From IMG/VR virus record IMGVR_UViG_3300020578_000006, positions 1 through 64,000 of that record: DNA of 64,000 nt; one strand, written 5' to 3'. This DNA is from a virus. A program made the position numbers and the translations under genes. Positions 793 through 58,317 of this stretch are shown here, piece by piece; the first letter of the stretch is position 1, and every line of letters begins with the position of its first letter. The notes beneath the pieces were generated by a model that was not told the origin of the DNA, made no database searches, and saw nothing but the letters and a program-made list of their open reading frames with translations.

Positions 793-1040
793 TTCTTTTT
801 CTTATTCTTCTTCAATGACTCAAGCTTAAATTCATTCTTTACTGCATTCTCAAGAACATGATTAACACCAATGTTACGGTATTGATCTTCCGTAATTACC
901 TCACGGCCGATATCTGCAAATGTTTGTAGCCAGCTATCTGGGCCTTCAATTTGAGCTTCATAATACTTGACAGCTTTAAAAGGACCAACATGAATGGTGT
1001 CGATATCTAGTTTTACATCTAATTTCTTACTTTTACTCAT
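789..1040 (-). CDS. hypothetical early protein (83 aa)
   Basis: The start is placed at ATG 1038-1040 (MSKSKKLDVKL) because a TATAAT -10 ends exactly six bases upstream; a longer frame to 1112 would run through the promoter and a hairpin-rich spacer. The C-terminus is a Lys/Asn run (KKNKKKK). A short W..TF.DI..E pattern recurs in the neighbour at 1172-1402, possibly weak paralogy. Function unknown. Confidence 0.55.
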   Translation of the reverse strand: MSKSKKLDVKLDIDTIHVGPFKAVKYYEAQIEGPDSWLQTFADIGREVITEDQYRNIGVNHVLENAVKNEFKLESLKKNKKKK

Positions 1041-1046
1041 ATTATT

Positions 1047-1074
1047 ATTATACAGAAACTCAAAATAAATCAAG
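1047..1074 (-). promoter_or_regulatory. sigma70-like promoter for 789-1040
   Basis: On the minus strand: -35 CTTGAT (1069-1074), 16-base spacer, -10 TATAAT (1047-1052), then six bases to ATG. The predicted transcript start is at or next to the A of AUG, so the mRNA would be leaderless. Confidence 0.65.
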
Positions 1075-1171
1075 AGCGGAGGAACGATTAGAAACTTAGT
1101 CTCGCTTTCCAAGCTATGTGCTTGGTGCGCTGAGGTCTAACCTATTCAGCCACAGCTATAGTATCTGCCTC

Positions 1172-1402
1172 CTACTCTCGAAGTCTTTTATAGTCTAAAT
1201 TCCATAGACTCATTTTGCGTTGAAAATCTCTTTCCTCATAATCTGCTCGAGCTTTGTAATAATTAGTCAACGCATTCTCTCCTTCAATATCTCGAAATGT
1301 ATCTACCCATCCTAAATCTTCTCCCATCCATGTAGAATATTCATACCTACATTTATTAAGTTTTTTGCCTTTGAACTTCTTCTTTTGATACATTTTAGGC
1401 AT
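1172..1402 (-). CDS. hypothetical protein (76 aa)
   Basis: Starts MPKMYQKKKFKGKKL with a strongly basic N-terminus, then an acidic/aromatic body containing WVDTFRDIEGE. It sits two bases after the 1404-1889 gene in the same direction. No family recognised; the WxxTFxDI pattern resembles that in 789-1040. Confidence 0.55.
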   Translation of the reverse strand: MPKMYQKKKFKGKKLNKCRYEYSTWMGEDLGWVDTFRDIEGENALTNYYKARADYEERDFQRKMSLWNLDYKRLRE

Positions 1403-1403
1403 A

Positions 1404-1889
1404 TTAAATAGGAACTCCTAGCTCTAGCAATCTAATAGCCTGCTCGTCTTTCTTCATATGTCTAATTTGAGCATTACTTAAAGGAAATGCTTTATGATAT
1501 TTTAAATTAAAATTCTCATCATTAATTGAAATTATATTTTCTAAGCTATTAACAGATAATCTCTCGCTTTTCATATCTACAACTTGATACACACCAAAGT
1601 ATTCCCCAGGAAGTGCATTAGGAGTACCGATACCTTTATCCCTATCTGATACAATAATACCATAATTAACCTTAATACCCTTAAAATCGTTACGTGTCTT
1701 AAGCTCTTGCTTAGTTAAAGCATCATAAACTTTACGGTATTCTTTAGAATCATAATCAGGAAGTGCTCTAGGTTTATACCAATATTTAAGATGAAATACT
1801 TTACTACAAATTGATTGTGTAGGGGAAATCTGAATATCCATCCAAGCAAACTTCTTGGGGCTAACTAATTTGTAAATGTATGCGCTCAT
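1404..1889 (-). CDS. hypothetical protein (161 aa)
   Basis: Soluble 161-residue product (MSAYIYKLVSPKKFAWM start). It overlaps the downstream end of the 1886-2098 gene by four bases (ATGA). No catalytic motif or membrane segment is visible. It is in a leftward operon of unknown early genes. Confidence 0.6.
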   Translation of the reverse strand: MSAYIYKLVSPKKFAWMDIQISPTQSICSKVFHLKYWYKPRALPDYDSKEYRKVYDALTKQELKTRNDFKGIKVNYGIIVSDRDKGIGTPNALPGEYFGVYQVVDMKSERLSVNSLENIISINDENFNLKYHKAFPLSNAQIRHMKKDEQAIRLLELGVPI

Positions 1890-2098
1890 CTGTTCCTTTC
1901 TAATGCTTTCTCTACCATTTTAACAAAATATAAATAGTCTTCTTTATCTTTTTTCTCTACATACCCGAGTAACTCGTTAATAATATTAGAGAACTCTGCA
2001 CCAATTTGGATATGCTTGTCAAGATTCTTACGAAGTTGGTCATTGCTTTCTCTAAGGTCCTTTAAAGCCTCTTCAAACATTTTCGTTGCTTCAGACAT
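1886..2098 (-). CDS. hypothetical coiled-coil protein (70 aa)
   Basis: Highly charged helical protein rich in Glu, Lys, Leu and Asn throughout, consistent with a coiled coil. It overlaps the 2091-2363 gene by eight bases and the 1404-1889 gene by four. Function unknown. Confidence 0.6.
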   Translation of the reverse strand: MSEATKMFEEALKDLRESNDQLRKNLDKHIQIGAEFSNIINELLGYVEKKDKEDYLYFVKMVEKALERNR

Positions 2099-2363
2099 TT
2101 TCTAGCTCCGTTAAACTATAATCTTTAAGAATACTTTCCCTTACAGTTGAGTAAGAAAGAAAAGTCTTAGCATCTTGCTTACTATTGAAGATAAATTGCT
2201 GATCTCGCTTACCGCTAGACAAATCTGTGCCCCCTCCAATATTTCGTCCTCCTAATTTATTAGCAAGAACTTCTAGTTTAGTCTCTTGATCGGAATACTT
2301 GTATTTGTTCTTGATAAAAACAAGTAGACTAACCTGTTGTTTAATTTTCGTAACTTTCATCAT
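2091..2363 (-). CDS. hypothetical early protein (90 aa)
   Basis: Two tandem ATGs (MMKVTKIKQQVSLL); the first lies exactly six bases after the CATAAT -10 at 2370-2375. The small basic product contains GGRNIGGGTDLSSG, a glycine-rich turn, followed by a helical C-terminus. No family recognised. First gene of its transcript. Confidence 0.6.
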   Translation of the reverse strand: MMKVTKIKQQVSLLVFIKNKYKYSDQETKLEVLANKLGGRNIGGGTDLSSGKRDQQFIFNSKQDAKTFLSYSTVRESILKDYSLTELENV

Positions 2364-2369
2364 ATCAAT

Positions 2370-2397
2370 ATTATGAATGAACCTAAGGTTTAGTCAA
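2370..2397 (-). promoter_or_regulatory. sigma70-like promoter for 2091-2363
   Basis: -35 TTGACT (2392-2397), 16-base spacer, -10 CATAAT (2370-2375), six bases to ATG. The -35 box overlaps the stop codon of the upstream gene 2390-2599. Predicts a leaderless transcript. Confidence 0.7.
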
Positions 2398-3291: not shown

Positions 3292-3313
3292 GTAAATATA
3301 TTACTTAATATGT

Positions 3314-4513: not shown

Positions 4514-4679
4514 CTTTAACCTCCACTTCTACAACATTTAACATGGCGTGTAATTTTTGTTTATTAATTTTAGTTTTAAATCTACTTTCAACATCTTCCA
4601 CAACGCTATCAAATAAACTTTGATTATTGACTAAAGAGGTCAAAATCATATTTAACGTTAATTTCTGATTTTGCTTCAT
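4494..4679 (-). CDS. hypothetical early protein (61 aa)
   Basis: Starts at ATG 4677-4679, six bases after a TATACT -10. A mostly helical small protein ending in an acidic strand (VEVEVKDEPVLV). First gene of an early leftward unit. No family recognised. Confidence 0.55.
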   Translation of the reverse strand: MKQNQKLTLNMILTSLVNNQSLFDSVVEDVESRFKTKINKQKLHAMLNVVEVEVKDEPVLV

Positions 4680-4685
4680 ATTATG

Positions 4686-4713
4686 AGTATAAAGGAATGT
4701 AGTTTAATTGCAA
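4686..4713 (-). promoter_or_regulatory. sigma70-like promoter for 4494-4679
   Basis: -35 TTGCAA (4708-4713), 16-base spacer, -10 TATACT (4686-4691), six bases to ATG. The -35 lies over the 3' end of the upstream gene. Predicts a leaderless mRNA. Confidence 0.65.
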
Positions 4714-5336: not shown

Positions 5337-5343
5337 ATATTAT

Positions 5344-5724
5344 TTAGAAATTATAATCGTAGAAATAGGTAGCTTGTTCACCTTTCTGATGAAGGCCGAA
5401 CTTACTATAACGGGTCTGCTGCCCTACTTCACACCAGCGCTGGGCTTTACTTCTCCAGCTTAAGATCTTAATCTTGTTACTAGGGTTACTGGAGAGCTTA
5501 TATTCTTGATCATGATTATCTGCAAAATGCCCAGAGAAGCCGCCTGGATGAAAGTCCTTAGGCTTCTTGATACATTCTGCATCAAGCTCACGAATTTTAA
5601 TACGACGGGGGCTGATAATTTCAATGACTTCCCAAGCATCCCTATCAGTGTAATGAAATTCCGTTACATGTTGACCGACAAATGGTTTCACATCTGGTTT
5701 GTTATCTGTCTTTGTTTTCATCAT
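5344..5724 (-). CDS. hypothetical early protein (126 aa)
   Basis: Tandem ATGs, the first six bases after the TATAAT at 5731-5736. The product has a beta-rich look with motifs VTEFHYTDRDAWEVIEI and GQQTRYSKFGLH; similar small proteins with a DAWEVI...R.I.IRE pattern occur in T4-like phages, but I cannot name the family. Soluble, no membrane segment. Single gene on a strong promoter. Confidence 0.65.
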   Translation of the reverse strand: MMKTKTDNKPDVKPFVGQHVTEFHYTDRDAWEVIEIISPRRIKIRELDAECIKKPKDFHPGGFSGHFADNHDQEYKLSSNPSNKIKILSWRSKAQRWCEVGQQTRYSKFGLHQKGEQATYFYDYNF

Positions 5725-5730
5725 ACCTAT

Positions 5731-5758
5731 ATTATAAAAGAAATATTGAATCAGGCAA
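5731..5758 (-). promoter_or_regulatory. sigma70-like promoter for 5344-5724
   Basis: -35 TTGCCT (5753-5758), 16-base spacer, -10 TATAAT (5731-5736), six bases to the first of two ATGs. The -35 overlaps the 3' end of the nuclease gene 5751-6398. Confidence 0.7.
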
Positions 5759-6398
5759 CACTATTTTCTAATTTCTTATCGTTATAAAGGTTTCTATAAT
5801 TCCTAAAACTATCTATCCATTCATCTCTATGGGCAAAAAATATCTGATTTTCACCAGTTTCACAACTAATAAGAATAGTAATATCTTGAATAGGAATACC
5901 TGTTCTATCCTCAAACATATAACTGTAAGCACTAGCTTGCATAAAATAATCCCAAATGTATTCTTTCTTCTTCGGCTTTGAGCTGGTCTTAAAGTCTATA
6001 ATTGATATACATCTATCAAACTCTGCAATACAATCAACCTGTCCGGCTACCTTTAATTCATCTGAATAAAGATGTTGCTCCATACATCTAATGTTCTTAA
6101 TTCTATCTAGGATGGGTTTAAATTGATTAAACATACCACCAACATTGTCTTCTGTATGCTCTTTATTTAGATATGATTCGCAAAGTGTATGGAATTGAGT
6201 ACCTCTTCTAGCTGCAAATTGTTTTATTCTATCCGCCTCTTCATCCCCTACCCGAGCTCTCCACTTAGCTAACTCTTTCTTCTTCCATTCAGATAGTACT
6301 GTTGTAACTGAAGGATATTTGTTTCCCTCAGGAGTAACATAGTGTCTTTCACCAGATTCCTTAGTTACTCTTTGTAACTTAGGCAATTCTATTTTCAT
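5751..6398 (-). CDS. PD-(D/E)XK exonuclease, MGME1-like
   Basis: 215 residues with the RecB/Cas4/MGME1-type nuclease layout: N-terminal YPSVTTVLS, GTQFHTLCESYL (His70, Glu74), AGQVDCIAEFD (Asp122) and ISIIDFKTSS (Asp135, Lys137), then a QASAYSYMFE helix as in RecB-family enzymes. These residues bind metal and cut single-stranded DNA ends in the family, so a role in phage DNA recombination, repair or host DNA degradation is likely. It has its own early promoter. A paralogue is at 46592-47335. Confidence 0.85.
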   Translation of the reverse strand: MKIELPKLQRVTKESGERHYVTPEGNKYPSVTTVLSEWKKKELAKWRARVGDEEADRIKQFAARRGTQFHTLCESYLNKEHTEDNVGGMFNQFKPILDRIKNIRCMEQHLYSDELKVAGQVDCIAEFDRCISIIDFKTSSKPKKKEYIWDYFMQASAYSYMFEDRTGIPIQDITILISCETGENQIFFAHRDEWIDSFRNYRNLYNDKKLENSVA

Positions 6399-6404
6399 GC
6401 CTAT

Positions 6405-6432
6405 ATTATGAATGGATTTGGAAGAATGTCAA
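6405..6432 (-). promoter_or_regulatory. sigma70-like promoter for the nuclease gene
   Basis: -35 TTGACA (6427-6432, consensus), 16-base spacer, -10 CATAAT (6405-6410), six bases to ATG at 6398. Predicts a leaderless nuclease mRNA. Confidence 0.75.
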
Positions 6433-8949: not shown

Positions 8950-8963
8950 CTTATTATTTAGTC

Positions 8964-9783: not shown

Positions 9784-9977
9784 TAATATTTTGCTCCCCA
9801 AATTTTTATTCTAGCATTAGGATCGTTGCTTCCATCAGGAGTGTCAAGCATATTATATTTGTTATAATCCCAATCTATACTGTCTTCGGCCATGTTATTC
9901 CTAGTATATGGTCCTTGTTTAACGCTAGTACAAGAACACAAAACAATTCCTGCTAGTAGTAACAATATTAAATTCAT
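9783..9977 (-). CDS. small lipoprotein (64 aa)
   Basis: Signal peptide II pattern: MNLILLLLAGIVLCSC, with a lipobox-like LCSC; mature protein about 48 residues, Asp/Asn/Tyr rich. Phage lipoproteins act in superinfection exclusion or in lysis (o-spanins), but no other spanin partner is visible. It stands first behind a near-perfect sigma70 promoter, so it is probably made early and strongly, favouring an early membrane role over lysis (inference). Confidence 0.7.
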   Translation of the reverse strand: MNLILLLLAGIVLCSCTSVKQGPYTRNNMAEDSIDWDYNKYNMLDTPDGSNDPNARIKIWGAKY

Positions 9978-9983
9978 ACTATT

Positions 9984-10011
9984 ATTATAAAGGTTATTAA
10001 AGTTATGTCAA
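9984..10011 (-). promoter_or_regulatory. consensus sigma70 promoter for the lipoprotein gene
   Basis: -35 TTGACA (10006-10011), 16-base spacer, -10 TATAAT (9984-9989), six bases to ATG. Both boxes match the consensus exactly. Predicts a leaderless mRNA. Confidence 0.85.
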
Positions 10012-10352: not shown

Positions 10353-10573
10353 TTTACAGTTTTGTTCAGTCTCTCAACTTCGTCCAAAAATGCTACTAAT
10401 GATTCCGATATTCTATATCTGTCTTGGTTCACAATGCCTTCAATTTTCACATAATCACCATTAACATACCTGTATGCTTGATCTCTACATATTCTACGAA
10501 ACTCTCCAACACATTGTTTAAGCTCAAAAAATTCTTCTTGAGTTAATTTTACATCTCTGAATGTGTACTTCAC
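10349..10573 (-). CDS. hypothetical protein (74 aa, GTG start)
   Basis: GTG at 10571-10573, six bases after a TATAAT (10580-10585) that overlaps the ATG of the divergent gene. Soluble helical protein with Cys at about 21 and 29. The -35 box is weak. Function unknown. Confidence 0.55.
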   Translation of the reverse strand: MKYTFRDVKLTQEEFFELKQCVGEFRRICRDQAYRYVNGDYVKIEGIVNQDRYRISESLVAFLDEVERLNKTVK

Positions 10574-10584
10574 TAAGTAATTAT

Positions 10585-10854
10585 ATGCTCGATAAAATTA
10601 AAAGCCATTTTAACAAAAGCTATAATTTAGTTTTTTGGGTATTGTTTGCCCCTGCTATGATTTGGACATTTTACAGTATACACGAATTATATACGGTATA
10701 TTTTGATCTGCTGACCAAACAAGATCACATGCAATTTTTTCTTAGAATTTTCTTTCCATTATCTGTAGCGTTATATGTTACATCATTAGAACGGGCAGCA
10801 CGAAAGAGACGAGAAAGGCTTAAACAGAATATTGAAAATTATCTAGATACTTAA
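10585..10854 (+). CDS. membrane protein (89 aa)
   Basis: Start chosen at ATG 10585 (MLDKIKSHFNKSYNL); a frame from 10561 lies inside the divergent gene. Two hydrophobic stretches (about 16-35 and 54-72) flank a polar loop, followed by a basic C-terminus (ERAARKRRERLKQ). Probable two-pass inner-membrane protein of unknown role. Confidence 0.5.
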   Translation: MLDKIKSHFNKSYNLVFWVLFAPAMIWTFYSIHELYTVYFDLLTKQDHMQFFLRIFFPLSVALYVTSLERAARKRRERLKQNIENYLDT

Positions 10855-18306: not shown

Positions 18307-18471
18307 TTATTTTTGAATTACAGCATCCTTTGGAAGATAAGCATTTAACTCTAGTTTAGAACCAATATACCCTGTTTGTACAAGGTTCTTAGACTTAATA
18401 TCAATAGTATAAACAGCATATCCACCACACGGGAGAGGCTTAACAATAGGTTTGTCTTTAGATTCGCTCAT
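18307..18471 (-). CDS. hypothetical protein (54 aa)
   Basis: ATG at 18469-18471, six bases after a TATAAT (18478-18483). Small beta-rich protein (KPIVKPLPCGGYAVYTIDI ... GYIGSKLELNAYLP). No family recognised. Confidence 0.55.
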   Translation of the reverse strand: MSESKDKPIVKPLPCGGYAVYTIDIKSKNLVQTGYIGSKLELNAYLPKDAVIQK

Positions 18472-18477
18472 TGATCT

Positions 18478-18483
18478 ATTATA
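18478..18483 (-). promoter_or_regulatory. -10 box (TATAAT) for 18307-18471
   Basis: Perfect minus-strand TATAAT six bases before ATG; no good -35 at 16-17 bases. It shares the spacing of the other early promoters. Confidence 0.45.
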
Positions 18484-19332: not shown

Positions 19333-20169
19333 TTATTTAGTTGATTCTGAAGCGGTCAGCGACTCCATCTGTTTAAACTTGGAAAGGAGGTCCAGATCTT
19401 TATTAGAATTCTTCGGAGGAATAACTTTAATAAGATCGGTAATATGTGTTACTTCTTGAACCTCAGGCTTTTCCTCCTTAGTCCATTCATACCCCTTTTT
19501 ACCAATACTAATAATCATCTCCTTATCAGCTGGTCCGAACCTATTCTTACTCCAAGTAAATACCCTTAATGTATTATCTTCTTCATCTACATTAAGATTA
19601 ATACAAGCATCTACCCCGTGCAATACGGCCGTAGAGCCTTTGTACACACCTGCTTTAGTAAGATGACATAAAGCAATAACAGTACACTTTGTATCCTTAG
19701 CCCGAGCACAAAGACGTGCAATACAATGTTGTTCTTTTTTTCTCGGGGTCATCTGCTTTTTGGTAGATAGAGTTTGAAAGCTGTCAATTACGATAAATTC
19801 AAACTCTGACATCTTCTCACAAATAGCATCAATATCGGATTGAACTGCAATAGGAACATCTTTAACATTAAGACGCTTACAAGCAAATGCGAGTTGCTCG
19901 ATAGATTCCTCTCCAGAAGCATGAGCAACCTTTACACCTTTATCGTGAAGAGCCTGCGCAAGCTGAAGACAGAAAGTACTTTTACCAGTACCTGCACCTG
20001 CGGCTAATAGATAAACGCCCCCTCTAAGAAATCCACCAGTCTCGCTTTCAGCACCACCGAGAAACTCATCTACCTCAACAAGACCCGTCTTAAGCCTGTT
20101 AAAATAAATATCTGGAATTTTGACCTTATTTGCAGGTACAAAGTCCGTACTCTTTAATATCATTTTCAT
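19333..20169 (-). CDS. RadA/Sms-like recombination ATPase
   Basis: 278 residues of the RecA-fold: TGLVEVDEFLGG, Walker A GAGTGKST (58-65), VAHASGEES (RadA-type SGEES), Walker B EFIVIDS, and the RadA-specific KNRFG motif near residue 210. RadA drives branch migration in recombination. It lacks the N-terminal zinc finger and the C-terminal Lon-like domain of bacterial RadA (about 450 aa), so it is a minimal core. Alternative: a divergent DnaB/UvsX-like ATPase, but SGEES and KNRFG favour RadA. Own early promoter. Confidence 0.8.
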   Translation of the reverse strand: MKMILKSTDFVPANKVKIPDIYFNRLKTGLVEVDEFLGGAESETGGFLRGGVYLLAAGAGTGKSTFCLQLAQALHDKGVKVAHASGEESIEQLAFACKRLNVKDVPIAVQSDIDAICEKMSEFEFIVIDSFQTLSTKKQMTPRKKEQHCIARLCARAKDTKCTVIALCHLTKAGVYKGSTAVLHGVDACINLNVDEEDNTLRVFTWSKNRFGPADKEMIISIGKKGYEWTKEEKPEVQEVTHITDLIKVIPPKNSNKDLDLLSKFKQMESLTASESTK

Positions 20170-20176
20170 TACCTAT

Positions 20177-20204
20177 ATTATGTATGAAATCGAGACTTAG
20201 TCAA
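20177..20204 (-). promoter_or_regulatory. sigma70-like promoter for the RadA-like gene
   Basis: -35 TTGACT (20199-20204), 16-base spacer, -10 CATAAT (20177-20182), seven bases to ATG. Back-to-back with the rightward promoter at 20219-20247. Confidence 0.7.
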
Positions 20205-20218: not shown

Positions 20219-20247
20219 TTGACATTCATAATCAGATATATTAAAAT
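20219..20247 (+). promoter_or_regulatory. sigma70-like promoter for 20254-20475
   Basis: -35 TTGACA (20219-20224), 17-base spacer, -10 TAAAAT (20242-20247), six bases to ATG. Divergent from the RadA promoter. Confidence 0.7.
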
Positions 20248-20253
20248 TGTATA

Positions 20254-20475
20254 ATGAACATTAAAAATAGTCCACCTTTTCCTATTAGTATGGTTAAACC
20301 TAAATTAAACCTGCCTCCAGAAAAAATGCGTAACCGTTATGGACGAATGGTTTATGGGCACAAAACCGCTGGTGCGATTGAGGTTATGACTAAAGAATGT
20401 TGGGATAGTAATAAGAAGTACTTCATTCCCAACGGTGCACGAAGTTGTGTTAAGAACTTTTCTAAAGTTACTTAG
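20254..20475 (+). CDS. hypothetical early protein (73 aa)
   Basis: Basic protein (MNIKNSPPFPISMVKPKLNLP) with PEKMRNRYGRMVYGH and a C-terminal IPNGARSCVKNF. Unknown. First gene of a rightward series from a divergent early promoter. Confidence 0.6.
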   Translation: MNIKNSPPFPISMVKPKLNLPPEKMRNRYGRMVYGHKTAGAIEVMTKECWDSNKKYFIPNGARSCVKNFSKVT

Positions 20476-20781: not shown

Positions 20782-20810
20782 TTGATATATATTAAAAATA
20801 CATCTATAAT
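20782..20810 (+). promoter_or_regulatory. sigma70-like promoter for 20817-21098
   Basis: -35 TTGATA (20782-20787), 17-base spacer, -10 TATAAT (20805-20810), six bases to ATG. Confidence 0.7.
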
Positions 20811-20816
20811 AGATGT

Positions 20817-21098
20817 ATGACTAAGAGAAAAGAGTATGATGCTGTTCTCAATAAAATTGTTAATACCTCTAAAGTGGTGTCTAGAGGACAAAGGGTACCA
20901 GTTATAGAACTTACTTTTAAGCCAGATGGTTATAGAAAAGATGGACACTTGGTTTATGTAGATTATAGGTGTGCTAAAGAGCTTATTGAGAAATTAAACG
21001 ATCAAGTAAGAGAGATAGAAACAACCTATTATCCCTATGAGCTGTTTAATAGAATAAATAATAGAGTCCATGAAGGACTCAAAGATCAAGAAGGGTAG
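20817..21098 (+). CDS. hypothetical early protein (93 aa)
   Basis: Soluble, charged product (MTKRKEYDAVLNKIVNTSKV). No family recognised. First gene behind its promoter; overlaps 21070-21288 by 29 bases. Confidence 0.6.
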   Translation: MTKRKEYDAVLNKIVNTSKVVSRGQRVPVIELTFKPDGYRKDGHLVYVDYRCAKELIEKLNDQVREIETTYYPYELFNRINNRVHEGLKDQEG

Positions 21099-24533: not shown

Positions 24534-24561
24534 GTTGATAACTGAATTTTTATTATAAAAT
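24534..24561 (+). promoter_or_regulatory. sigma70-like promoter for 24568-24714
   Basis: -35 GTTGAT (24534-24539), 16-base spacer, -10 TAAAAT (24556-24561), six bases to ATG 24568. Confidence 0.55.
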
Positions 24562-24567
24562 TAAACT

Positions 24568-24714
24568 ATGGCCGGTAAAGGAAGTAAGCCAAGAAATTGT
24601 TTTAGCAAGGAGTTTAAAAGAAACTTCGACGATATAAACTGGGTAACTAAAGAAGGTAAAGAGATTAGAAACTATAAAGAAAAGAAAGGGAAGAAAATTT
24701 ACAAATACCCATGA
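24568..24714 (+). CDS. basic microprotein (48 aa)
   Basis: ATG 24568, stop overlapping the next ATG (ATGA at 24711-24714). Very basic product (MAGKGSKPRNCFSKEFKRNF ... EKKGKKIYKYP). May bind nucleic acid, but no family is recognised. Confidence 0.55.
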   Translation: MAGKGSKPRNCFSKEFKRNFDDINWVTKEGKEIRNYKEKKGKKIYKYP

Positions 24715-30907: not shown

Positions 30908-30926
30908 ACATATTATTTAATGTTTT

Positions 30927-30934
30927 TATAAATA
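30927..30934 (+). promoter_or_regulatory. T4-type late promoter (TATAAATA)
   Basis: Exact TATAAATA, five bases before ATG 30940. The leftward gene 30224-30907 has a TTAAATAA within the same 32-base gap, making a divergent late promoter pair. Confidence 0.65.
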
Positions 30935-36323: not shown

Positions 36324-36332
36324 ATATTTTAT

Positions 36333-37820
36333 TTATTCCAAAGATAGTACAAATGGAGTTATAAGTGAGAATATTGATCTATTAAAGGTTCTTCCTTCAA
36401 TAGTACCTGTGGCTTGTCTAATAGTAAAGTCAGACCCTACTTTAAAATCACCTTTCTCATTGGTTAAAGTTACAAATATTCTTGCACCGTCGGTTGCTCT
36501 GACCTCGTTTTCCGGCTTGGCTACACCACCTAAAACAGGCAAAGCAGTCGCCAAAGTAGACCCAGCACCAACATATTCCATAGTATATGCACTAGCTAAA
36601 ATTTGACTTCTGAAGTACAAGTACACAGCATTCTCCGTTCCATCTTCATTTGGATCAGGAATAAGTGGGCCGCTAGAAATATAGGACTGAACTGTATCTT
36701 CAGCAATTAATTCATATGTATAAGCAGGGTACCCATTACCACCGACACTAAGAGCAGATACTAATGTATGTAATGTTTTTTGTTGCTCCCCTGCGCAGTC
36801 AAATACCATTAATTCTGCAGGATATCTTGCCAATAATGTGGGAAATATATCTTTAACTAAAAAGCTACCTTCACCTGCAGAAACGTCTCTTATTAAAGTA
36901 CCAGTCAACATTGGTGCGTTAGATTTTCCAAAAGCAACAAGACCAGATAAACCAAATGATGCATTAGAGGTATTAATATCGCATTGACCCCCTGCACTCA
37001 CCATAACAGCCGTTGTACCGCCAATAGTGAAGATACTAACAAGCTGCGCATAACCATTGTTCAGTATTATAATACCATCTCCACCCTCATTAAACTGGGT
37101 ATAGGAATCAAGAACCATACTTCTCAAGAATCCTCCTACTCTGTCCCCGTCGATTCTCATACCGGCTCCGGCATCATCTCTACCCGGGGCAGTTGATTGT
37201 GTAATAGAACTACACCCCTGTACATAAGGACTAGTAAAGATATAAAGGGGATGTCCAGGAACGTGTTTGTTACCGGTAGGTGGAGACACAATATAGCCTG
37301 GAGTTTGAAAGGCTACTTGGTAGTCTTGTTCAGCAGTGTTTAAGTGAGGAAACGCTATAGCTGCCCCCGGGCGTTTATGACCTCTGAATGTAAATCCCCA
37401 GATATAATCTGCATTAGTAACCCAAAATAAATCTAATGCAGAGTTTCTAGGAAATACACTTGTACGTCTTAAATTATCACCAATAATGGAAGTGCGTTGT
37501 GGTACAAACACTGGGTTTAATTCATGATATTCACCGGTCTTTACAAAAATAGTCCATTGCCTTTGGGGGTTTTGTGCCGCAAACTGACAAGCTCTTTTAA
37601 TAGTTTTAAAAGGATAATTTTCTGCTGTACCTACATTACCATCAGATCCACTTACTGTTACATACAAAACATTTGGTGTGCTCCATAACCCACCACTAAG
37701 AAGATTAGATATAGCGTAAAAATCTACTTGAAACTCACCTTGAAACGGTCTGTAACCTACTAGATAATCTGAAGGAAGCGGACTAGTCCGTGAAAAATCG
37801 GCAAATGAACGGTAGGCCAT
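36333..37820 (-). CDS. right-handed beta-helix tail spike-like protein (495 aa)
   Basis: Contains a pectin-lyase-like start (LYVTVSGSDGNVGTAENYPFKTIKRACQ, i.e. Gly-x-Asp-Gly ... PF-T-I--A), followed by repeating short strands (GNNRR-like, MVLDSYTQFNEGGDGIII, AMVSAGGQCDINTS). Conserved in marine T4-like phages as a tail or baseplate spike; depolymerase activity cannot be confirmed. Late-type CTAAATAA upstream. Confidence 0.8.
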   Translation of the reverse strand: MAYRSFADFSRTSPLPSDYLVGYRPFQGEFQVDFYAISNLLSGGLWSTPNVLYVTVSGSDGNVGTAENYPFKTIKRACQFAAQNPQRQWTIFVKTGEYHELNPVFVPQRTSIIGDNLRRTSVFPRNSALDLFWVTNADYIWGFTFRGHKRPGAAIAFPHLNTAEQDYQVAFQTPGYIVSPPTGNKHVPGHPLYIFTSPYVQGCSSITQSTAPGRDDAGAGMRIDGDRVGGFLRSMVLDSYTQFNEGGDGIIILNNGYAQLVSIFTIGGTTAVMVSAGGQCDINTSNASFGLSGLVAFGKSNAPMLTGTLIRDVSAGEGSFLVKDIFPTLLARYPAELMVFDCAGEQQKTLHTLVSALSVGGNGYPAYTYELIAEDTVQSYISSGPLIPDPNEDGTENAVYLYFRSQILASAYTMEYVGAGSTLATALPVLGGVAKPENEVRATDGARIFVTLTNEKGDFKVGSDFTIRQATGTIEGRTFNRSIFSLITPFVLSLE

Positions 37821-37877
37821 AGAATTATTTAGTTTATTTTACCGTAAAAGAAGGTATTAAACTAAATAATTCTTTAA

Positions 37878-39282: not shown

Positions 39283-39316
39283 ATATCTTATTTAGTAGTG
39301 AATCCGACCAACTACT

Positions 39317-39520: not shown

Positions 39521-39534
39521 AATCTATTTACTTA

Positions 39535-41584: not shown

Positions 41585-42175
41585 TTAATGTGAAATAATC
41601 TTTGTAGATGCTATAAAAATATCGTCGTTGGTTTGGTAAAAGAAATTAACTACATCCTTCATAAAGGATACAGCCTGGTCATTATCAAGATTAGTACTAA
41701 ACGCAAATGCAGGTGCGCGTTTACCAGCAACCACATTGATACCAGTATGACCGAGCGCGGCCCCATCTTTTACGTGTACAATACTAACACTACATTTACC
41801 CTTTTGTTGAGTGACACCACCCTGGGTAAACTCCTTCGTGACCATAAGATCATCCCCATCTACTTCAATTGGTGCTTGAATATACTTGTAGAGTATATTT
41901 GCAATATTTGCATTAAACATTCTCTGATAACAAATGGCACCAAAACTTTCTGTAATTAGAGGTATCTCATACAAAAAATGAATCATGTCTTCGCTGTAGA
42001 TAAAGTCTTTATTTAAGGAATCTTCTTGATCTATTAATCCTTCTGTCTCCACATTGGCAGGAGCTCTAAAAGCAATTATATTACCAATTGGAAGGCACTT
42101 ATCTCTAAAATACCGGTAAGCAAATCTCTTATGTAATAACACCCCATCGTAAACTTTAATATCATTTAAAATCAT
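41585..42175 (-). CDS. DUF366-family protein
   Basis: 196 residues: VYDGVLLHKRFAYRYFRDKCL, GNIIAFRAPANVE, DQEDSLNKDFIYSEDMIHFLYEIP, and C-terminal KCSVSIVHVKDG-(G)-HTGINV. These match the DUF366 family, of unknown function, known in archaea and some phages. Starts six bases after a TATAAT -10, so early expression. Confidence 0.65.
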   Translation of the reverse strand: MILNDIKVYDGVLLHKRFAYRYFRDKCLPIGNIIAFRAPANVETEGLIDQEDSLNKDFIYSEDMIHFLYEIPLITESFGAICYQRMFNANIANILYKYIQAPIEVDGDDLMVTKEFTQGGVTQQKGKCSVSIVHVKDGAALGHTGINVVAGKRAPAFAFSTNLDNDQAVSFMKDVVNFFYQTNDDIFIASTKIISH

Positions 42176-42181
42176 AGAACA

Positions 42182-42209
42182 ATTATAATATGTATTATAG
42201 ATTAGTCCA
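42182..42209 (-). promoter_or_regulatory. sigma70-like promoter for the DUF366 gene
   Basis: -35 TGGACT (42204-42209), 16-base spacer, -10 TATAAT (42182-42187), six bases to ATG 42175. It lies over the 3' end of the upstream gene. Confidence 0.6.
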
Positions 42210-42651: not shown

Positions 42652-44466
42652 ATGCCTGAGTACGGAAATTCTGATTCTGGACGTGAATCGACATTTGGTC
42701 GTTCGTTAATGAGTTATATTAACTCTAAGCTTCCTTATCAGAGCTATACATCTATTGATACTATAAGTAAACTAAATCCCAAATTTAAAGTATTTCAAGA
42801 TACAGGCAGTAAGAGAACAGAAGCACTAGCCAGACAAAGCATTAGCAGTAATACTGAATATAATAGCTTAGACCCATCCGGCATTATTGGTCTAGATAAC
42901 AATTTCACCCAATACATGTATGCAAATGTGCAACATGACAAAGTATCTAGATTAAGAGACTACAGAACAATGGCATCTTTTTCTGAAGTAGCCGATGCGC
43001 TAGATGAAATATGTGATGATGCAATAAACAAAGATTCAAAAGGCAAAGTAGTTCATGCTAAGTTTCTAGATCTAGATTTAAATGACAAAGACACTACAGT
43101 TCTAGAAGAAGAGTTTCAAAAATATATTCAACATTTTGATTTGTCCCATAAAGGGTGGGAATATTTTAGAACACTACTAGTTGATGGTGAGTTATACTTT
43201 GAACATATTATCCACAAGCAATACGAGGATGAAGGAATATTAGGAGTTATAACTGTACCTAACGAATTTGTTGATCCTATTTTTGGCAATGTACAGAATA
43301 TGATGATTAAGGGCTTCTTGTTAAGAAAGCCAGTTTTTGACAAAAACAACCCTACCAAGATATTGGAATATAAGCTTGTTCCAATGGACAAAAATCAAAT
43401 AACTTATATTAACTCTGGTATATGGAATGAGAACAAGACAATAAGACTTCCGTTCATAGAGAACGCAAGAAGAGCATATAGGCAGATTAGTCTATTAGAA
43501 GATGCGGTCGTAATTTATAGGTTGGCACGAGCACCTGCGCGTTTAATCTTCAATGTAGATGTTGGCAATATGCCTGCACCAAAAGCAGAAGCGTATATGC
43601 GTAAATTAATGAACCAATATTGGTCATCTAAGAGTTTTGATGCGCAGCAAGGCGGAGGGGCTCTTAAAAAATATAACCCACAAAGTATTTTAGATAATTT
43701 CTGGTTTGCAAAGCGCGCTGGTTCTGAAGGTACAGATGTAAGACAATTAGAAGGTGCAAATCAAGCTTGGGGGCTAGAGGAAATGAACTATTTCTTAAAG
43801 AAACTTTATAAGAGCTTAAAGGTACCAGTATCCAGACTTAATGCTGAAACTGGCTACAAAGATGATATGAACATTCTTCGTGAGGAATTAAAATTTGCTA
43901 AATTTATTGTTAGAATGCAGCAGCAATTTGCTGAAGGCTTAAAGAATGGTTTTGTAACGCATTTAAAGCTTAGAAAGCTTTGGGAAAAATTTGATCTTAA
44001 GGAAACTAACATTGATATTGAGTTTAATGTACCAATTAACTTCTTTGAGATGAGAGAGGCACAAAAACAGGAGATCAAATCAAAGACATTCGGTGACATA
44101 ATTCAATCAGCTGATAATATTAGTAAGACATATGCATTAAAGAAATACATGGATTGGACAGATGTAGAAATTCTTGCAAATAGAGAATTTATGAGAAAAG
44201 ATATGGCATTTAGCTGGGAATTAGAGCAAATTAAAGCTGGAGGCCCTAATTGGAAAGAAAATGCTTTAGCGGGTGTTGCTCCAGCAGAAGGTGGTGAAGT
44301 TGGTGGTGCAAGTGTTGGTGGTGGAGCCGCAAGTACATTACCGCCTGCTTTTGGACCTACCCCGGCTGGTGGACCAGAAGGTGGAGTTCCTGCTGAAGGC
44401 GGGCCTGCTCCAGCAGAGGGTGCACCGGGCCCTGCGGCCGGTGGGGCACCACCCCCTACCGGTTAA
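42652..44466 (+). CDS. 20: portal vertex protein, T4 gp20-like
   Basis: 604 residues, comparable to T4 gp20 (524) plus a C-terminal Gly/Pro/Ala-rich tail (about 535-604). Portal hallmarks: YRTMASFSEVADALDEICDDA, EYFRTLLVDGELYFEHI, VPNEFVDP, RAPARLIFNVDVGNMP, RKLMNQYW, FWFAKRAGSEGTDVRQLEG and VSRLNAETG. It forms the dodecameric DNA gate and assembly initiator. The low-complexity tail is unusual; it may be a disordered internal extension. Late promoter upstream. Confidence 0.95.
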   Translation: MPEYGNSDSGRESTFGRSLMSYINSKLPYQSYTSIDTISKLNPKFKVFQDTGSKRTEALARQSISSNTEYNSLDPSGIIGLDNNFTQYMYANVQHDKVSRLRDYRTMASFSEVADALDEICDDAINKDSKGKVVHAKFLDLDLNDKDTTVLEEEFQKYIQHFDLSHKGWEYFRTLLVDGELYFEHIIHKQYEDEGILGVITVPNEFVDPIFGNVQNMMIKGFLLRKPVFDKNNPTKILEYKLVPMDKNQITYINSGIWNENKTIRLPFIENARRAYRQISLLEDAVVIYRLARAPARLIFNVDVGNMPAPKAEAYMRKLMNQYWSSKSFDAQQGGGALKKYNPQSILDNFWFAKRAGSEGTDVRQLEGANQAWGLEEMNYFLKKLYKSLKVPVSRLNAETGYKDDMNILREELKFAKFIVRMQQQFAEGLKNGFVTHLKLRKLWEKFDLKETNIDIEFNVPINFFEMREAQKQEIKSKTFGDIIQSADNISKTYALKKYMDWTDVEILANREFMRKDMAFSWELEQIKAGGPNWKENALAGVAPAEGGEVGGASVGGGAASTLPPAFGPTPAGGPEGGVPAEGGPAPAEGAPGPAAGGAPPPTG

Positions 44467-44893: not shown

Positions 44894-45492
44894 TTCAACC
44901 AAACAGTTGTCGGGTCGAATGCGGTTGTATTCAAGAAATCCCAGACTTCATAATCTGGTTTTATTTCTATTGTTGCAGCTTTTAATAGGTTTGCTAACAA
45001 CGATTCTAAATCTTGAATATGCCACACATCATCTAAAAGTCTTCTACCGGATGTACGTGTTTTATGGGCAACGTGATCGGCATAGGAATATGCAAAACCT
45101 GCAAAAGGGGGAATCATACAACCCAAACTAACTAAATTTCCTAGAATTCTTGAACAAACTTCTTTACCACCAACGGAGTGCATTGTAACTATTGCACAAG
45201 CCGGTTTACCGACAAGATATTTAGATCCTTCTAATACAGTCATCTTTTCAAATAATTGCTGCATACTTGACCCCCAACTATCCCAATATGTACCTGTTGA
45301 AAAAATTAATGCGTCTGCTTTTTTAATAGCACGTTTAACGCTATTCCAACAAAATGAAGGAGATAAATGAATAATTCTAACACGAACAGAATCATTTTTT
45401 TTGAGAAGCATTCGCTTAATTTTTCTTAACAACATTGAAGTATTGCCAGTTCGCCCACCTATGGCACCATTGATTATTAGGACGTTCTTCAT
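44890..45492 (-). CDS. NADPH-dependent FMN reductase / flavodoxin-like protein
   Basis: 200 residues: MKNVLIINGAIGGRTGNTSML (FMN phosphate loop G-x-x-R-x-G-N-(T/S)), ADALIFSTGTYWDSWGSSMQQLFEKM (flavin-binding, family block), and KPACAIVTMHSVGGKEVC. The family reduces flavins or quinones, or moves electrons. Its role in a phage is unknown; it could feed radical-SAM enzymes nearby, but this is speculation. Own early promoter. Confidence 0.8.
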   Translation of the reverse strand: MKNVLIINGAIGGRTGNTSMLLRKIKRMLLKKNDSVRVRIIHLSPSFCWNSVKRAIKKADALIFSTGTYWDSWGSSMQQLFEKMTVLEGSKYLVGKPACAIVTMHSVGGKEVCSRILGNLVSLGCMIPPFAGFAYSYADHVAHKTRTSGRRLLDDVWHIQDLESLLANLLKAATIEIKPDYEVWDFLNTTAFDPTTVWLK

Positions 45493-45498
45493 TTATAG

Positions 45499-45527
45499 AG
45501 TATAAAAGAAAATATATGTAAAATCAA
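45499..45527 (-). promoter_or_regulatory. sigma70-like promoter for the flavoprotein gene
   Basis: -35 TTGATT (45522-45527), 17-base spacer, -10 TATACT (45499-45504), six bases to ATG 45492. Divergent from the promoter at 45538-45565, 10 bases apart. Confidence 0.6.
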
Positions 45528-45537: not shown

Positions 45538-45565
45538 TTGATTTTTTTAGAATACCTCTTATTAT
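45538..45565 (+). promoter_or_regulatory. sigma70-like promoter for 45572-45775
   Basis: -35 TTGATT (45538-45543), 16-base spacer, -10 TATTAT (45560-45565), six bases to ATG 45572. Confidence 0.6.
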
Positions 45566-45571
45566 ATGGAT

Positions 45572-45775
45572 ATGGAAAAGTTTACAGTAGTTATTAAAAA
45601 CGTATATAGTTCAGATAAAAGCAGATCTGTAACTATTAAAGCGGAAGACAGTTGGTTGGCCCATAAAGAGGCAAATAACTATTATAATCAGCTTAGGGAA
45701 GATGTTGTCTCCATTAAAGACAGCAAAAACAATGAAGTCTACAATCTAGAAAAAGGCTTTATTTTTGAATCCTAA
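45572..45775 (+). CDS. hypothetical early protein (67 aa)
   Basis: Two ATGs in frame (45566 and 45572). The first follows the -10 directly and would lie upstream of the transcript start, so the second (MEKFTVVIKNVYSS) is chosen. Strand-helix protein (SVTIKAEDSWLAHKEANNYY) of unknown function. Confidence 0.6.
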   Translation: MEKFTVVIKNVYSSDKSRSVTIKAEDSWLAHKEANNYYNQLREDVVSIKDSKNNEVYNLEKGFIFES

Positions 45776-47750: not shown

Positions 47751-47773
47751 TTTTCTAGACATAAATATGGTAT

Positions 47774-52432: not shown

Positions 52433-52471
52433 TAATAAATAATTTAGTCAAAAACAATTTTATTTCAATGT

Positions 52472-54015: not shown

Positions 54016-54016
54016 T

Positions 54017-54772: not shown

Positions 54773-56150
54773 AAAAATCTTCCGGTAGCTTCTTACAAAA
54801 GCCTACTTTTTCATAAATTTCTTTACCCGCCGTATCCACGTCCACAAAAGGAAATTGCCGCTCTAACATATATTGTCTTTGAGGCTCTTTAAAATTATTG
54901 TATTTTGATTTATCTAGCCAAAGCGTTTCCTGCCATAACTTTTTATCGAGATAGGGATATCTTACCTCTATACCATGGACTCCACAGCAATACTCACAAG
55001 AATAAGGATTATTATCATCATAATCTATAACACCATTAATATCCTTAAGCCTTTTAAATAGCTTATTAATACCCTTAAAGCCAATGGCATCTCCACCTAA
55101 GCCGGATAAACAAATCTTATATCCTTCTTTTTTTGCTTTTAAAAAAATAAGACCGGCCCCTATAAACCCATAAGTCTCTCTACATACATATCCTACAAAT
55201 TTATTTTTATAAAAATCAAAGTGAGTATAGGCATAGTCCTCGACATTTTTAAAAATTTCATCTCGAGTAATCTCATGCATACTATCTGTAGGGTCGATAA
55301 GCTCTTTATTGACAATATTAGGTATTAAAATCTGTTTTCCTTCTATGATAGGTGGATTTTTAGTACTCAATCCATGGCGCCATAATAAAACATTAGACGG
55401 CTTTTCTAATACATTGACGGAATAAGCTTTAAAAGGAAGGTTATACTTTAACAGGGCGCTGCAAATAGCTCCGCTATCATACCCCTCACTAACACCCATA
55501 AAAATTTTTTTAGAAGCAGCAACAGTTCTTTTCAATATACTTTCATCAAACGCCATTTTCCAATCATCTAAATTAACTTTGTGTTCATTATCTAAATCAA
55601 AAGCTGTTATTTTATTTAATTTTATATTATCATTGCTTATATCGTATGTGTAATAATAATTTCCATATACGTGAAAAATTTCTTTATACCCTAATACAGA
55701 CAGTGCGCTCTTATATGAAGCTATACCTATTGTATTATTATGAATACTAAAAAATATAGGCTTAGTACCGAAAGTGTCAGAGCCAAAAATTAATTTCTTT
55801 TTTTTCTTATCTAACAAAACGATAGTAAATTCACCATCAAGATATTTAAAAAATTCTGCTCCATACTCTTCATATGCTTTGATTATACTTTCTCCATCTG
55901 ATAGACTATCAGGGGTAATGTCTTTATAATTATATATTTCACCATTGAAAACCATTATGATGTCACCACATTTAGAAATAAGTGGTTGAGGGGTCAAGTC
56001 TCCGGTAATACTTAGTAAATTATGTATAAAGTGAAAGCCGCTTTCGTTTTTATAAGAAGTTAAATCTGGTCCTCTAAATTTTTGATAGAAATTGGCGGCA
56101 TTTAAAACTTCTTCGGATGTATCTTTATTTGTGACCAAAAAACTACACAT
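54762..56150 (-). CDS. asparagine synthetase-like amidotransferase (AsnB family)
   Basis: 462 residues: Cys2 nucleophile (MCSFLV), FNGEIYNY, DTFGTKPIFF (class II glutaminase), then the synthetase half with an altered P-loop VSEGYDSGAI instead of SGGLDSS, and LSGLGGDAIGF. AsnB-type enzymes amidate carboxylates; members in secondary metabolism modify other acids. Shorter than E. coli AsnB (554 aa). The altered loop suggests another substrate or reduced activity. Confidence 0.85.
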   Translation of the reverse strand: MCSFLVTNKDTSEEVLNAANFYQKFRGPDLTSYKNESGFHFIHNLLSITGDLTPQPLISKCGDIIMVFNGEIYNYKDITPDSLSDGESIIKAYEEYGAEFFKYLDGEFTIVLLDKKKKKLIFGSDTFGTKPIFFSIHNNTIGIASYKSALSVLGYKEIFHVYGNYYYTYDISNDNIKLNKITAFDLDNEHKVNLDDWKMAFDESILKRTVAASKKIFMGVSEGYDSGAICSALLKYNLPFKAYSVNVLEKPSNVLLWRHGLSTKNPPIIEGKQILIPNIVNKELIDPTDSMHEITRDEIFKNVEDYAYTHFDFYKNKFVGYVCRETYGFIGAGLIFLKAKKEGYKICLSGLGGDAIGFKGINKLFKRLKDINGVIDYDDNNPYSCEYCCGVHGIEVRYPYLDKKLWQETLWLDKSKYNNFKEPQRQYMLERQFPFVDVDTAGKEIYEKVGFCKKLPEDFFKV

Positions 56151-56200
56151 AAAATATTTATACAGTAGTATAAAAAATAAAAACTACAGGTAAATAAAGC

Positions 56201-57355
56201 ATGCTTGATAAAAATTTATGTATTTTGCCATGGATTTCGCTTTATATAAGAGCGGACGGCAATATTTATCCCTGTGAAAGTGTAGCCTGGCAAGGAGACG
56301 ACTACTTACTTGGTAATCTAAACACAACAACACTAGAGGAAGCTTGGAACCACGATATGATGAAGAAGCTTCGGCTTAAAGTTATTACCAATTCTACATG
56401 CGAACTGTCTAATGAAGAGAAAAATTCTTGCATGTACCTTATAAATCATTCTCTTTATGAAGACGTATATAAAAATTACAAAAACGAAACAAAGTCAGAC
56501 GGAAGTTATAAAGTTGATATAAAAGCATTATTTTTAGAAAGATCCAATCTTTGTAATCTTCAATGTTTATATTGTTGTGATGTTAGTAGCTCTAGCTGGG
56601 AGCGAAAAAATAAAACCAATATAATGAAAATTAGTGATACTGTTTATGATTTAAAAGTGCTACCTATAACAAACAATCTTAGAGAATTATTTTTATCTGG
56701 CGGTGAACCGGTTATTAACAAATACAATAAAAAACTCTTACAACATTTAATTAACCATAATCCAAATATAGAATTAGGAATGGCAACGAATTTAACTTAT
56801 AATTTTGAACTATATGAAGAGTTTTTTAGTTTATTAGAAAAATTTAATAATACTAAAGTTTTTTGTAGTGTAGACAGCTCAGAAACTCGACACGATTTTA
56901 TTAGAATCAACTCAAATTGGAATACCGTAAAAACCAATTTAAATAAACTTAAAAACTATAAAGTAAGAATATATTTTAATAGTGTTATATCTTTATTAAG
57001 TGCTTTCTACTTAAAAGAATTTCACGAAACTTTAATTAATATGAAGATAATAGGCATTGACGGTATTCGATATATTAATTTGACTGGTCCAGAAGAACTT
57101 TGTATACAGTCGCTTTCGTTTAATAAGAAAAAAGAACTTAAAGAGTATCTTATTAGCTACATTAATTTTTTAAAAGAAAATGAAAATTTATCTAATAATA
57201 TAGATTTATATCCAAACAATAACAAGCCTTCTCAGGCTGCAGACAATATAATAAAATTTTTATTTAAAAAACTAGGTAATAATAATTATATAGACAATTT
57301 GTCTAAATTTGTATCTATAGATACTATTAAAAAACACTTTGACAGATTACTCTAA
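56201..57355 (+). CDS. radical SAM protein 2 with N-terminal SPASM/twitch region
   Basis: 384 residues. N-terminal CILPWISLYIRADGNIYPC (C7, C25), LGNLNTTTLEEAWN, C67, C77; radical-SAM core CNLQCLYC (C118, C122, C125) then LFLSGGEPVIN. Same inverted order as radical SAM protein 1. Late-type GTAAATAA precedes ATG. Substrate unknown. Confidence 0.85.
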   Translation: MLDKNLCILPWISLYIRADGNIYPCESVAWQGDDYLLGNLNTTTLEEAWNHDMMKKLRLKVITNSTCELSNEEKNSCMYLINHSLYEDVYKNYKNETKSDGSYKVDIKALFLERSNLCNLQCLYCCDVSSSSWERKNKTNIMKISDTVYDLKVLPITNNLRELFLSGGEPVINKYNKKLLQHLINHNPNIELGMATNLTYNFELYEEFFSLLEKFNNTKVFCSVDSSETRHDFIRINSNWNTVKTNLNKLKNYKVRIYFNSVISLLSAFYLKEFHETLINMKIIGIDGIRYINLTGPEELCIQSLSFNKKKELKEYLISYINFLKENENLSNNIDLYPNNNKPSQAADNIIKFLFKKLGNNNYIDNLSKFVSIDTIKKHFDRLL

Positions 57356-57592
57356 AATATCGCCATAATTTTTGGAATAAGAAAAAATACTTCCAAAAAA
57401 CTTTTTTTGATTAAAATTATAATAGGCTATAAATTCTTTATCTTCAGTGGTGTAATTAATTGCAAAGATATTTTTACCTAGAACACTTTTGTAGAAATTG
57501 CCGCTAATTTTTTGTTTTGTGCTTATTTGTTCGGCTAAAAAAGTACCATTATCATTTAAATTTATTATCTCATCTCTTGTCTTAAATACCAT
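57347..57592 (-). CDS. hypothetical protein (81 aa)
   Basis: MVFKTRDEIINLNDNGTFLA start, beta-rich, ends SIFSYSKNYGDILE. Nine-base convergent overlap with radical SAM protein 2. A CTAAATA-like late element precedes it. It may be a small partner or substrate of the radical SAM protein (speculative). Confidence 0.45.
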   Translation of the reverse strand: MVFKTRDEIINLNDNGTFLAEQISTKQKISGNFYKSVLGKNIFAINYTTEDKEFIAYYNFNQKKFFGSIFSYSKNYGDILE

Positions 57593-57614
57593 AAACGTAT
57601 TTAGATGTATATCA

Positions 57615-57642
57615 TTGATTACAACTAGGTTTATATTATAAT
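57615..57642 (+). promoter_or_regulatory. sigma70-like promoter for the PIG-L gene
   Basis: -35 TTGATT (57615-57620), 16-base spacer, -10 TATAAT (57637-57642), six bases to ATG 57649. Confidence 0.7.
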
Positions 57643-57648
57643 TAATTT

Positions 57649-58317
57649 ATGGTCAAAACTATGGTTATAGTTCCTCATGGAGATGATGAAATATTAGGCT
57701 TTTATGGGGCTATAAAAAGAAATTTAGAGCAGAACAATCATGTTAGTGTTGCGTTTATTATGGGGCCTAAGAACCTAACTAACGAAAGGAACACTCATCA
57801 ATTTCACACTATAGAAAAAGTTAAAGATAAGTTAGGTTATAACGAGGTGTTTTATCTAGATATTTTTAACGAACACAATATTCATTCAAATAAGCTCGAG
57901 CTCATCACAAGAATAGAAGAACTTGTATCTAATAATCATATAGATATCGTTTACACCACCCACTGGGGTGACAACCATCAAACACATAAATTATGCTATG
58001 AAGCGGTTGTTGCAGCCATAAGACCTATAGGGCCATGTAAAGCATCGAGACTAATTACAGGGGAGATTATATCCTCTACAGATCAAGCCCCGCAAACAGA
58101 AGCACATAGCTTTATCCCTAATATATTTTTGGAATTGTCCGAACAAGAAATAGAGGAAAAGATTAATCTTTTGAAAATGTATGAATATGAATATATGCAA
58201 ACCCCTCACCCTAGATCTGAGTGGGGGCTAAAAGCGGTAGCTAGCTTTAGAGGTATACAAGCAGGTGTTAAATACGCTGAAGGATATTTTTGTGCAAGAG
58301 AAATCATTAAAAAATAA
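57649..58317 (+). CDS. PIG-L/LmbE family deacetylase
   Basis: 222 residues: IVPHGDDEILGFYG (zinc motif H-x-D-D, 10-13), YNEVFYLDIF, THWGDNHQTHKL (the H-x-D-H-x-x-T/H block) and SSTDQAP. The family removes acetyl groups from N-acetylglucosamine-like sugars or mycothiol-type precursors. Own early promoter, unlike the neighbours. Confidence 0.85.
   Translation: MVKTMVIVPHGDDEILGFYGAIKRNLEQNNHVSVAFIMGPKNLTNERNTHQFHTIEKVKDKLGYNEVFYLDIFNEHNIHSNKLELITRIEELVSNNHIDIVYTTHWGDNHQTHKLCYEAVVAAIRPIGPCKASRLITGEIISSTDQAPQTEAHSFIPNIFLELSEQEIEEKINLLKMYEYEYMQTPHPRSEWGLKAVASFRGIQAGVKYAEGYFCAREIIKK

Follow-up and report, generated by a model that had tools for sequence, protein, structure and literature searches.

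Late genes of bacteriophage T4 are read from the promoter TATAAATA by gp55, gp33 and gp45, and the box lies mostly 24–28 nt upstream of a start codon led by a Shine-Dalgarno (SD) motif. In the large Thermus phage phiYS40, transcripts are mostly leaderless, and infection has been proposed to shift the initiation factors IF2 and IF3 in their favour (review PMC3594737), while in bacterial genomes a TA-like signal precedes leaderless genes at ~10 bp from the start (Zheng 2011, PMC3160421). Here, we describe promoters that abut start codons in bases 1–64,000 (the window) of the 229,717-base virus record IMGVR_UViG_3300020578_000006, a 34% GC genome of a freshwater phage classed as a T4-like jumbo phage, in which leaderless mRNA is very probably made in both temporal classes, with the promoter fused to the start codon as the default gene head.

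The genome contains the T4-type core genes portal gp20, polB, UvsX, gp32, gp45 and gp55, as fits a T4-like phage akin to the Straboviridae and Kyanoviridae, and the closest annotated relatives of the portal share only ~27–32% identity with it. Similar to the bS21-encoding freshwater jumbo phages described by Chen 2022 (PMC9723584), the present phage is a freshwater myovirus of low GC carrying the gene for ribosomal protein bS21 among its structural genes, but those genomes measure 293–331 kb and have predicted Bacteroidetes hosts, whereas the promoters found here are not Bacteroidetes-like. In those phages bS21 lies on the strand opposite to neighbouring structural genes, while here bS21 shares the minus strand with the neighbouring tail sheath stabilizer and the portal occupies the plus strand; the text of that paper never uses the word 'promoter'. 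The cultured T4-like Pelagibacter phage HTVC008M also encodes bS21 (PMC6375957), provides the closest match of the present ribonucleotide reductase (53%) and has TAAATA 4–6 nt before the start of 10/192 genes (mostly at exactly 5; 1.5 expected), but SD motifs precede most of its genes and no early −10/ATG peak is seen, so that the trait is partial there.

Promoter boxes in register with start codons

Gene starts were called from codon statistics and coding signal alone, with promoter and SD information unused, which gave 111 genes in the window and 139 genes in a second sample of five 20-kb stretches (100 kb) of the same genome, beyond the window and unseen in the first-pass annotation. Dinucleotide shuffles of upstream DNA (100 shuffles) and 551 internal Met codons served as null models. 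The first-pass annotation had named 13 sites at which a −10 box ends exactly six bases from ATG with a −35 box at 15–17 bases, and reading of each site confirmed both distances, with TATAAT, CATAAT, TATACT, TAAAAT or TATTAT as the −10 element and 4–6 of six matches to TTGACA in the best −35 element (TGGACT at 42182). At the open reading frame beginning at 45566, relatives indicate that the true start is 45572 rather than the in-frame ATG 45566, placing TATTAT at exactly 6, as the annotation had it. A site at 20177, named as a seven-base case, does have a spacing of 7, and the two further sites at 10580 and 18478 show the spacing of 6 and the weak −35 (3/6) ascribed to them, except that the start behind 10580 is GTG, not ATG.

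Promoters scored on both the −35 and −10 elements occurred at distance 6 in 11/111 genes of the window, against a shuffle mean of 0.22 (maximum at any position 3), and in 22/139 genes of the outside stretches, against a mean of 0.25 (maximum 4), while none of the 551 internal Met codons had such a site at distance 6. The comparison of distance histograms with shuffled controls, proposed along with the first-pass annotation, thus yields a peak far sharper than in shuffles, which recurs both in relatives and in the stretches of the genome that the annotation had not covered. The early set is in part defined through its −35 element, yet a motif-free scan, covering every 5- and 6-mer position by position, also recovers TTGAC ~29–30 bases upstream, together with TATAAT at 5–7.

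The motif-free scan gave its strongest signal at 4–6 bases (Poisson p down to 1e-49), for TAAATA, which forms the core of T4 late promoters. This box ends 4–6 bases from the start of 27 genes in the window and 25 genes outside it, where ~0.7 would be expected in each sample, and the box is TATAAATA-like, matching the T4 late consensus. The DNA upstream of the late box carries no −35 information, as is expected of T4 late promoters, in contrast to the early set, which has a −35. A gp55-type late sigma factor is encoded at 164,096–164,506 (E=5.5e-26), as is a gp45-type sliding clamp (E=5.6e-13), and a search for a separate vegetative sigma70 in the phage returned only the gp55-like gene. The two classes segregate along 209.7–229.7 kb, with 217 kb as the boundary between the late boxes below and 15/17 early promoters above, and a T directly precedes the start in 40/52 late heads compared with 56/141 other genes (p=4e-6). 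The label 'early promoters' of the first-pass annotation therefore describes a real class but is too narrow, as late promoters behave alike, are more frequent and had been overlooked. A box 20–30 nt upstream combined with an SD motif is the arrangement of T4 and not a need of the late machinery.

Since TATAAT and TAAATA are AT-rich words, their recurrence might be ascribed to chance or to the composition of a genome with 34% GC, an explanation that we reject as having next to no probability: the peaks are absent from dinucleotide shuffles, from internal Met codons and from phages of similar AT richness, in line with the first-pass argument that the repeated spacing is not fortuitous. With the same caller, no box-to-start peak was found in T4, Aeh1, Campylobacter phage CP81 or P-SSM2, and SD motifs peaked at 5–8 in T4 and Aeh1.

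Comparison with 40 portal-bearing contigs as relatives revealed that the boxes are kept in orthologous upstreams (45 nt) whose identity falls to 44% for early and 51% for late genes. An early-type −10 lies at 6–9 nt in 32/32 distinct orthologous upstreams (taking the top-scoring box under a per-gene criterion), and the late box lies at 4–8 nt in 52/57. Codons 2–7 of the orthologues change mainly at third positions, indicating that translation does begin at the assigned start codon.

Predicted transcription start and initiation at unit heads

A sigma70 promoter with six bases past its −10 places position +1 on the A of ATG, and TATAAATA with five bases to the start likewise places +1 where the start codon begins. 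Messages starting there are predicted to have no leader, or almost none. The early genes would be read from a host sigma70-type promoter, TTGAC-N15-17-TATAAT, with the −10 ending 6 bases from ATG, and the late genes from TAAATA without a −35, a box that ends 4–6 bases from ATG or GTG and would be recognised by the gp55-type sigma of the phage together with its gp45-type clamp. Transcription would begin on the A or G of the start codon, within one or two bases, and the first gene of each unit would be translated from a 5′-terminal AUG or GUG without SD, whereas later genes in the unit would be reached mostly through stop-start overlap (ATGA) and in a minority through SD motifs. The 5′-terminal AUG would be bound by ribosomes, probably as 70S particles (review PMC9031893). 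The exact 5′ ends, the reading of the late box by gp55 and the start of the ribosome on the 5′-terminal codon are what we infer from the DNA. The −10 element ~10 bp upstream of the translation start, taken to mark leaderless genes, is present here in the same TATAAT-to-start geometry as in the bacterial genes of Zheng 2011, which belong to cellular genomes with no phage sigma and no late class.

Defining a unit head as a gene that either diverges from its upstream neighbour or lies 25 nt or more beyond it (n=116), we found an early or late box in register in 76/116 heads (66%), compared with 3.9% false positives in shuffled upstreams and 24% of tight-operon genes. SD motifs precede 2% of early heads and 6% of late heads, near the shuffled values, but 27% of tight-operon genes, against 8% in shuffled unclassified upstreams. 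With the spacing upheld and promoter-adjacent genes this poor in SD motifs (2–6%), the first-pass proposal of leaderless, SD-free early mRNAs stands as a strong prediction from sequence. Among tight genes the commonest arrangement is an ATGA overlap with the previous stop (gap −4 in 36/99), and the unit is most simply read as a leaderless head gene with translational coupling giving access to the rest. Divergent pairs just 32–39 bp apart carry a box on each side, the tightest being 30907/30940 (32 bp), with two late boxes.

The boxes could instead be SD-independent translation signals, that is, A-rich, unstructured leaders as in Bacteroidetes, on mRNAs with ordinary leaders. Bacteroidetes initiate at A/T-rich starts without SD (PMC6847099), and phage bS21 is known in lake phages predicted to infect this phylum (PMC9723584). 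However, TTGAC at ~29–30 nt lies beyond ribosome contact and at promoter spacing, the late box fits the gp55 consensus in a genome that encodes gp55 and gp45 homologues, boxes are far commoner in unit heads than in tight-operon genes, and the short divergent gaps leave little space for separate leaders and promoters. The promoters are also sigma70-like rather than Bacteroidetes-like, the motif-free scan having found no TAnnTTTG in register, which led us to reject Bacteroidetes promoters here. Taking these observations together, we regard translation signals as an improbable account of the boxes.

A closer rival to strict leaderlessness is a short leader, with transcription starting 1–6 nt upstream of the start codon, too near to accommodate an SD motif. 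Distances do spread over 4–6 (late) and 5–8 (early), some orthologues have 8–11, and the portal has ~11–13 nt, but the modal distance of 6 sets +1 on the A under a sigma70 promoter, as a distance of 5 does under TATAAATA, so that we consider short leaders possible, though unlikely as the general rule. Several observations weigh against fully leaderless heads as the default: in about one-third of unit heads no box can be recognised in register, some of the late boxes lie farther off, as at the portal, the late box is followed by a GTG start in 11/52 heads, and the gene caller is our own, yet it reproduces the SD peak of T4 and Aeh1. Start codons are otherwise mostly ATG, with GTG in 6/57 early heads and hence in 17/109 heads in all. 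Given that leaderless GUG is usually poor in E. coli (PMC9031893), the GTG starts suggest that either the host ribosome accepts leaderless GUG or a few leader bases remain on some mRNAs. A tandem ATGATG opens 11/57 early heads and 1/193 other genes (p=4e-7; for example, 2363, 5724 and C1:218-229 kb), and this doubling is perhaps a guard against the start site slipping by a few bases.

Table 1 Promoter boxes at start codons and other features (window coordinates unless prefixed C1; distance is from the end of the box to the start codon)
Feature	Position	Strand	Start codon	Distance	Remarks
Early promoter TTGATT / TATAAT (1047-1052)	1038..1073	-	ATG 1040	6 nt	
Early promoter TTGACT / CATAAT	2361..2397	-	2363	6 nt	tandem ATGATG
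Early promoter TTGCAA / TATACT	4677..4713	-	ATG 4679	6 nt	
Early promoter TTGCCT / TATAAT	5722..5758	-	5724	6 nt	tandem ATGATG
Early promoter TTGACA / CATAAT	6396..6432	-	ATG 6398	6 nt	
Early promoter TTGACA / TATAAT	9975..10011	-	ATG 9977	6 nt	
TATAAT, doubtful	10571..10585	-	GTG 10573	6 nt	weak −35
TATAAT, doubtful	18469..18483	-	ATG 18471	6 nt	weak −35
Early promoter TTGACT / CATAAT	20167..20204	-	ATG 20169	7 nt	
Early promoter TTGACA / TAAAAT	20219..20256	+	ATG 20254	6 nt	
Early promoter TTGATA / TATAAT	20782..20819	+	ATG 20817	6 nt	
Early promoter TTGATA / TAAAAT	24535..24570	+	ATG 24568	6 nt	
Early-type promoter TGGACT / TATAAT	42173..42209	-	ATG 42175	6 nt	box 6-9 nt from start in 20 distinct orthologous upstreams
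Early-type promoter TTGATT / TATACT	45490..45527	-	ATG 45492	6 nt	6-8 nt in 11 distinct orthologous upstreams, some GTG-started
Early promoter TTGATT / TATTAT	45538..45574	+	ATG 45572	6 nt	
Early promoter TTGATT / TATAAT	57615..57651	+	ATG 57649	6 nt	
Late box TAAATA	8955..8960	-	ATG 8949	5 nt	
Late box TAAATA	30914..30919	-	ATG 30907	6 nt	divergent gap shared with box 30929..30934
Late box TAAATA	30929..30934	+	ATG 30940	5 nt	
Late box TAAATA	36330..36335	-	ATG 36323	6 nt	4-7 nt in 11 orthologous upstreams
Late box TAAATA, tail-fibre gene	37826..37831	-	ATG 37820	5 nt	5 nt in 6/7 orthologous upstreams
Late box TAAATA, tail sheath stabilizer	39289..39294	-	ATG 39282	6 nt	4-11 nt in 12 orthologous upstreams
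Late box TAAATA, bS21 gene	39525..39530	-	ATG 39520	4 nt	
Late box TAAATA, tail-fibre gene	47762..47767	+	ATG 47774	6 nt	6 nt in 9/9 orthologous upstreams
Ribosomal protein bS21, phage-encoded, 67 aa	39317..39520	-			late box at its head
T4-type portal protein (gp20)	42652..44466	+			anchor for locating relatives; own late box ~11-13 nt upstream
Secreted-looking PEP-CTERM proteins adjoining prepilin-type pseudopilin-like proteins	13611-14327, 12880-13614; C1:207082-210510	-			unusual phage cargo

Phage bS21, host clues and neighbouring genes

The phage bS21 is present in 33/40 portal-bearing relatives, located near the portal, and resembles chains of the E. coli/Pseudomonas/Lactococcus type, which, like the promoters, points away from a Bacteroidetes host. 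In the ribosome, bS21 is located at the anti-SD site. Together with the leaderless regime, this raises the hypothesis that phage bS21 disfavours SD-led messages: it would replace host bS21 at the anti-SD site and weaken SD-led (host) initiation, while phage messages with a 5′-terminal AUG, early and late, would still be translated, a scheme that we put forward as tentative and judge unlikely, on balance, to hold. A role in redirecting ribosomes has been suggested for phage bS21 (PMC9723584). With HTVC008M bS21 in place, E. coli ribosomes made ~5% of the GFP in vitro (PMC6375957), a value that the replacement, if true, would explain, giving phage bS21 genes a function. Searches for a phage-encoded IF3, an S1-domain protein and a peptide deformylase found none. 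The visible translation factor is thus bS21, unlike the IF2/IF3 of phiYS40, a phage of another lineage in which the leaderless transcripts are middle and late, as opposed to the predicted sigma70-type early and T4-type late classes described here.

The phage may merely mirror a host rich in leaderless genes, with nothing phage-specific about the trait; this is compatible with leaderless heads as the default and falls somewhat short of an even chance in our estimate. In Actinobacteria and Deinococcus-Thermus, leaderless genes are frequent (PMC3160421), and PEP-CTERM proteins (five matches in the genome, three above the family cut-off) and pseudopilins hint weakly at a host with an exosortase, for instance one of the Verrucomicrobia, a group with several SD-scarce members (PMC10783764). 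Against this, the late class relies on a phage sigma, making its fusion to AUG a phage trait regardless. An Actinobacterial host was considered through WhiB and set aside, as no WhiB was found. Portal relatives in cellular genomes, sought as a host clue, yielded none; hits of QueF reach just 37–46% across several phyla, the best of 10 being a Bacteroidetes metagenome-assembled genome at 46%, and are uninformative on the host; and the ribonucleotide reductase and an IMPDH/GMP-reductase-like protein, searched against phages only, have phage relatives.

Other genes accompany these features. QueC, a bimodular QueF and the IMPDH/GMP-reductase-like enzyme (C1:140-160 kb; stretch L047:16107-17072 and L047:18040-18957) form a set of queuosine/7-deazaguanine pathway genes, perhaps for DNA modification. 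Positions 50239–63839 hold a cluster of glycosyltransferases (GT2, GT8 and DXD type), radical SAM/SPASM proteins, a PIG-L deacetylase and an asparagine-synthase-like amidotransferase, which is a glycan or surface modification island. A glycosyltransferase family 17 protein (23736–24530, plus strand) lies directly behind a tRNA-Ile(tat) gene, and the gene behind the 7-nt promoter (19333–20169, minus strand) encodes a KaiC/DnaB-like RecA-fold ATPase.

Implications for T4-like phages

Leaderless mRNA and T4 late promoters are each known. To judge from the literature examined, a T4-like phage that joins the two as its standard gene head, for early and late genes alike, is apparently undescribed; we found no description of leaderless early and late promoters in T4-like phages, itself weak evidence of absence. 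The partial form of the arrangement in HTVC008M suggests a possible stepwise origin of the leaderless trait within this branch of the T4-like phages. Programs for finding genes or promoters that presuppose a leader will overlook such promoters, and a survey of pelagimyophages reported failure to find middle and late promoters (PMC7029224); conversely, the promoter-to-start spacing rule can correct start-codon calls. The present phage also offers a clean in vitro test of the role of phage-encoded bS21. Leaderless phage messages are usually seen as exceptions, such as lambda cI, or as a Thermus speciality, whereas here they would be the default head in a T4-like lineage. That promoter and start codon are fused in both transcription systems, each with a sigma factor of its own, speaks for selection acting on leaderlessness as such.

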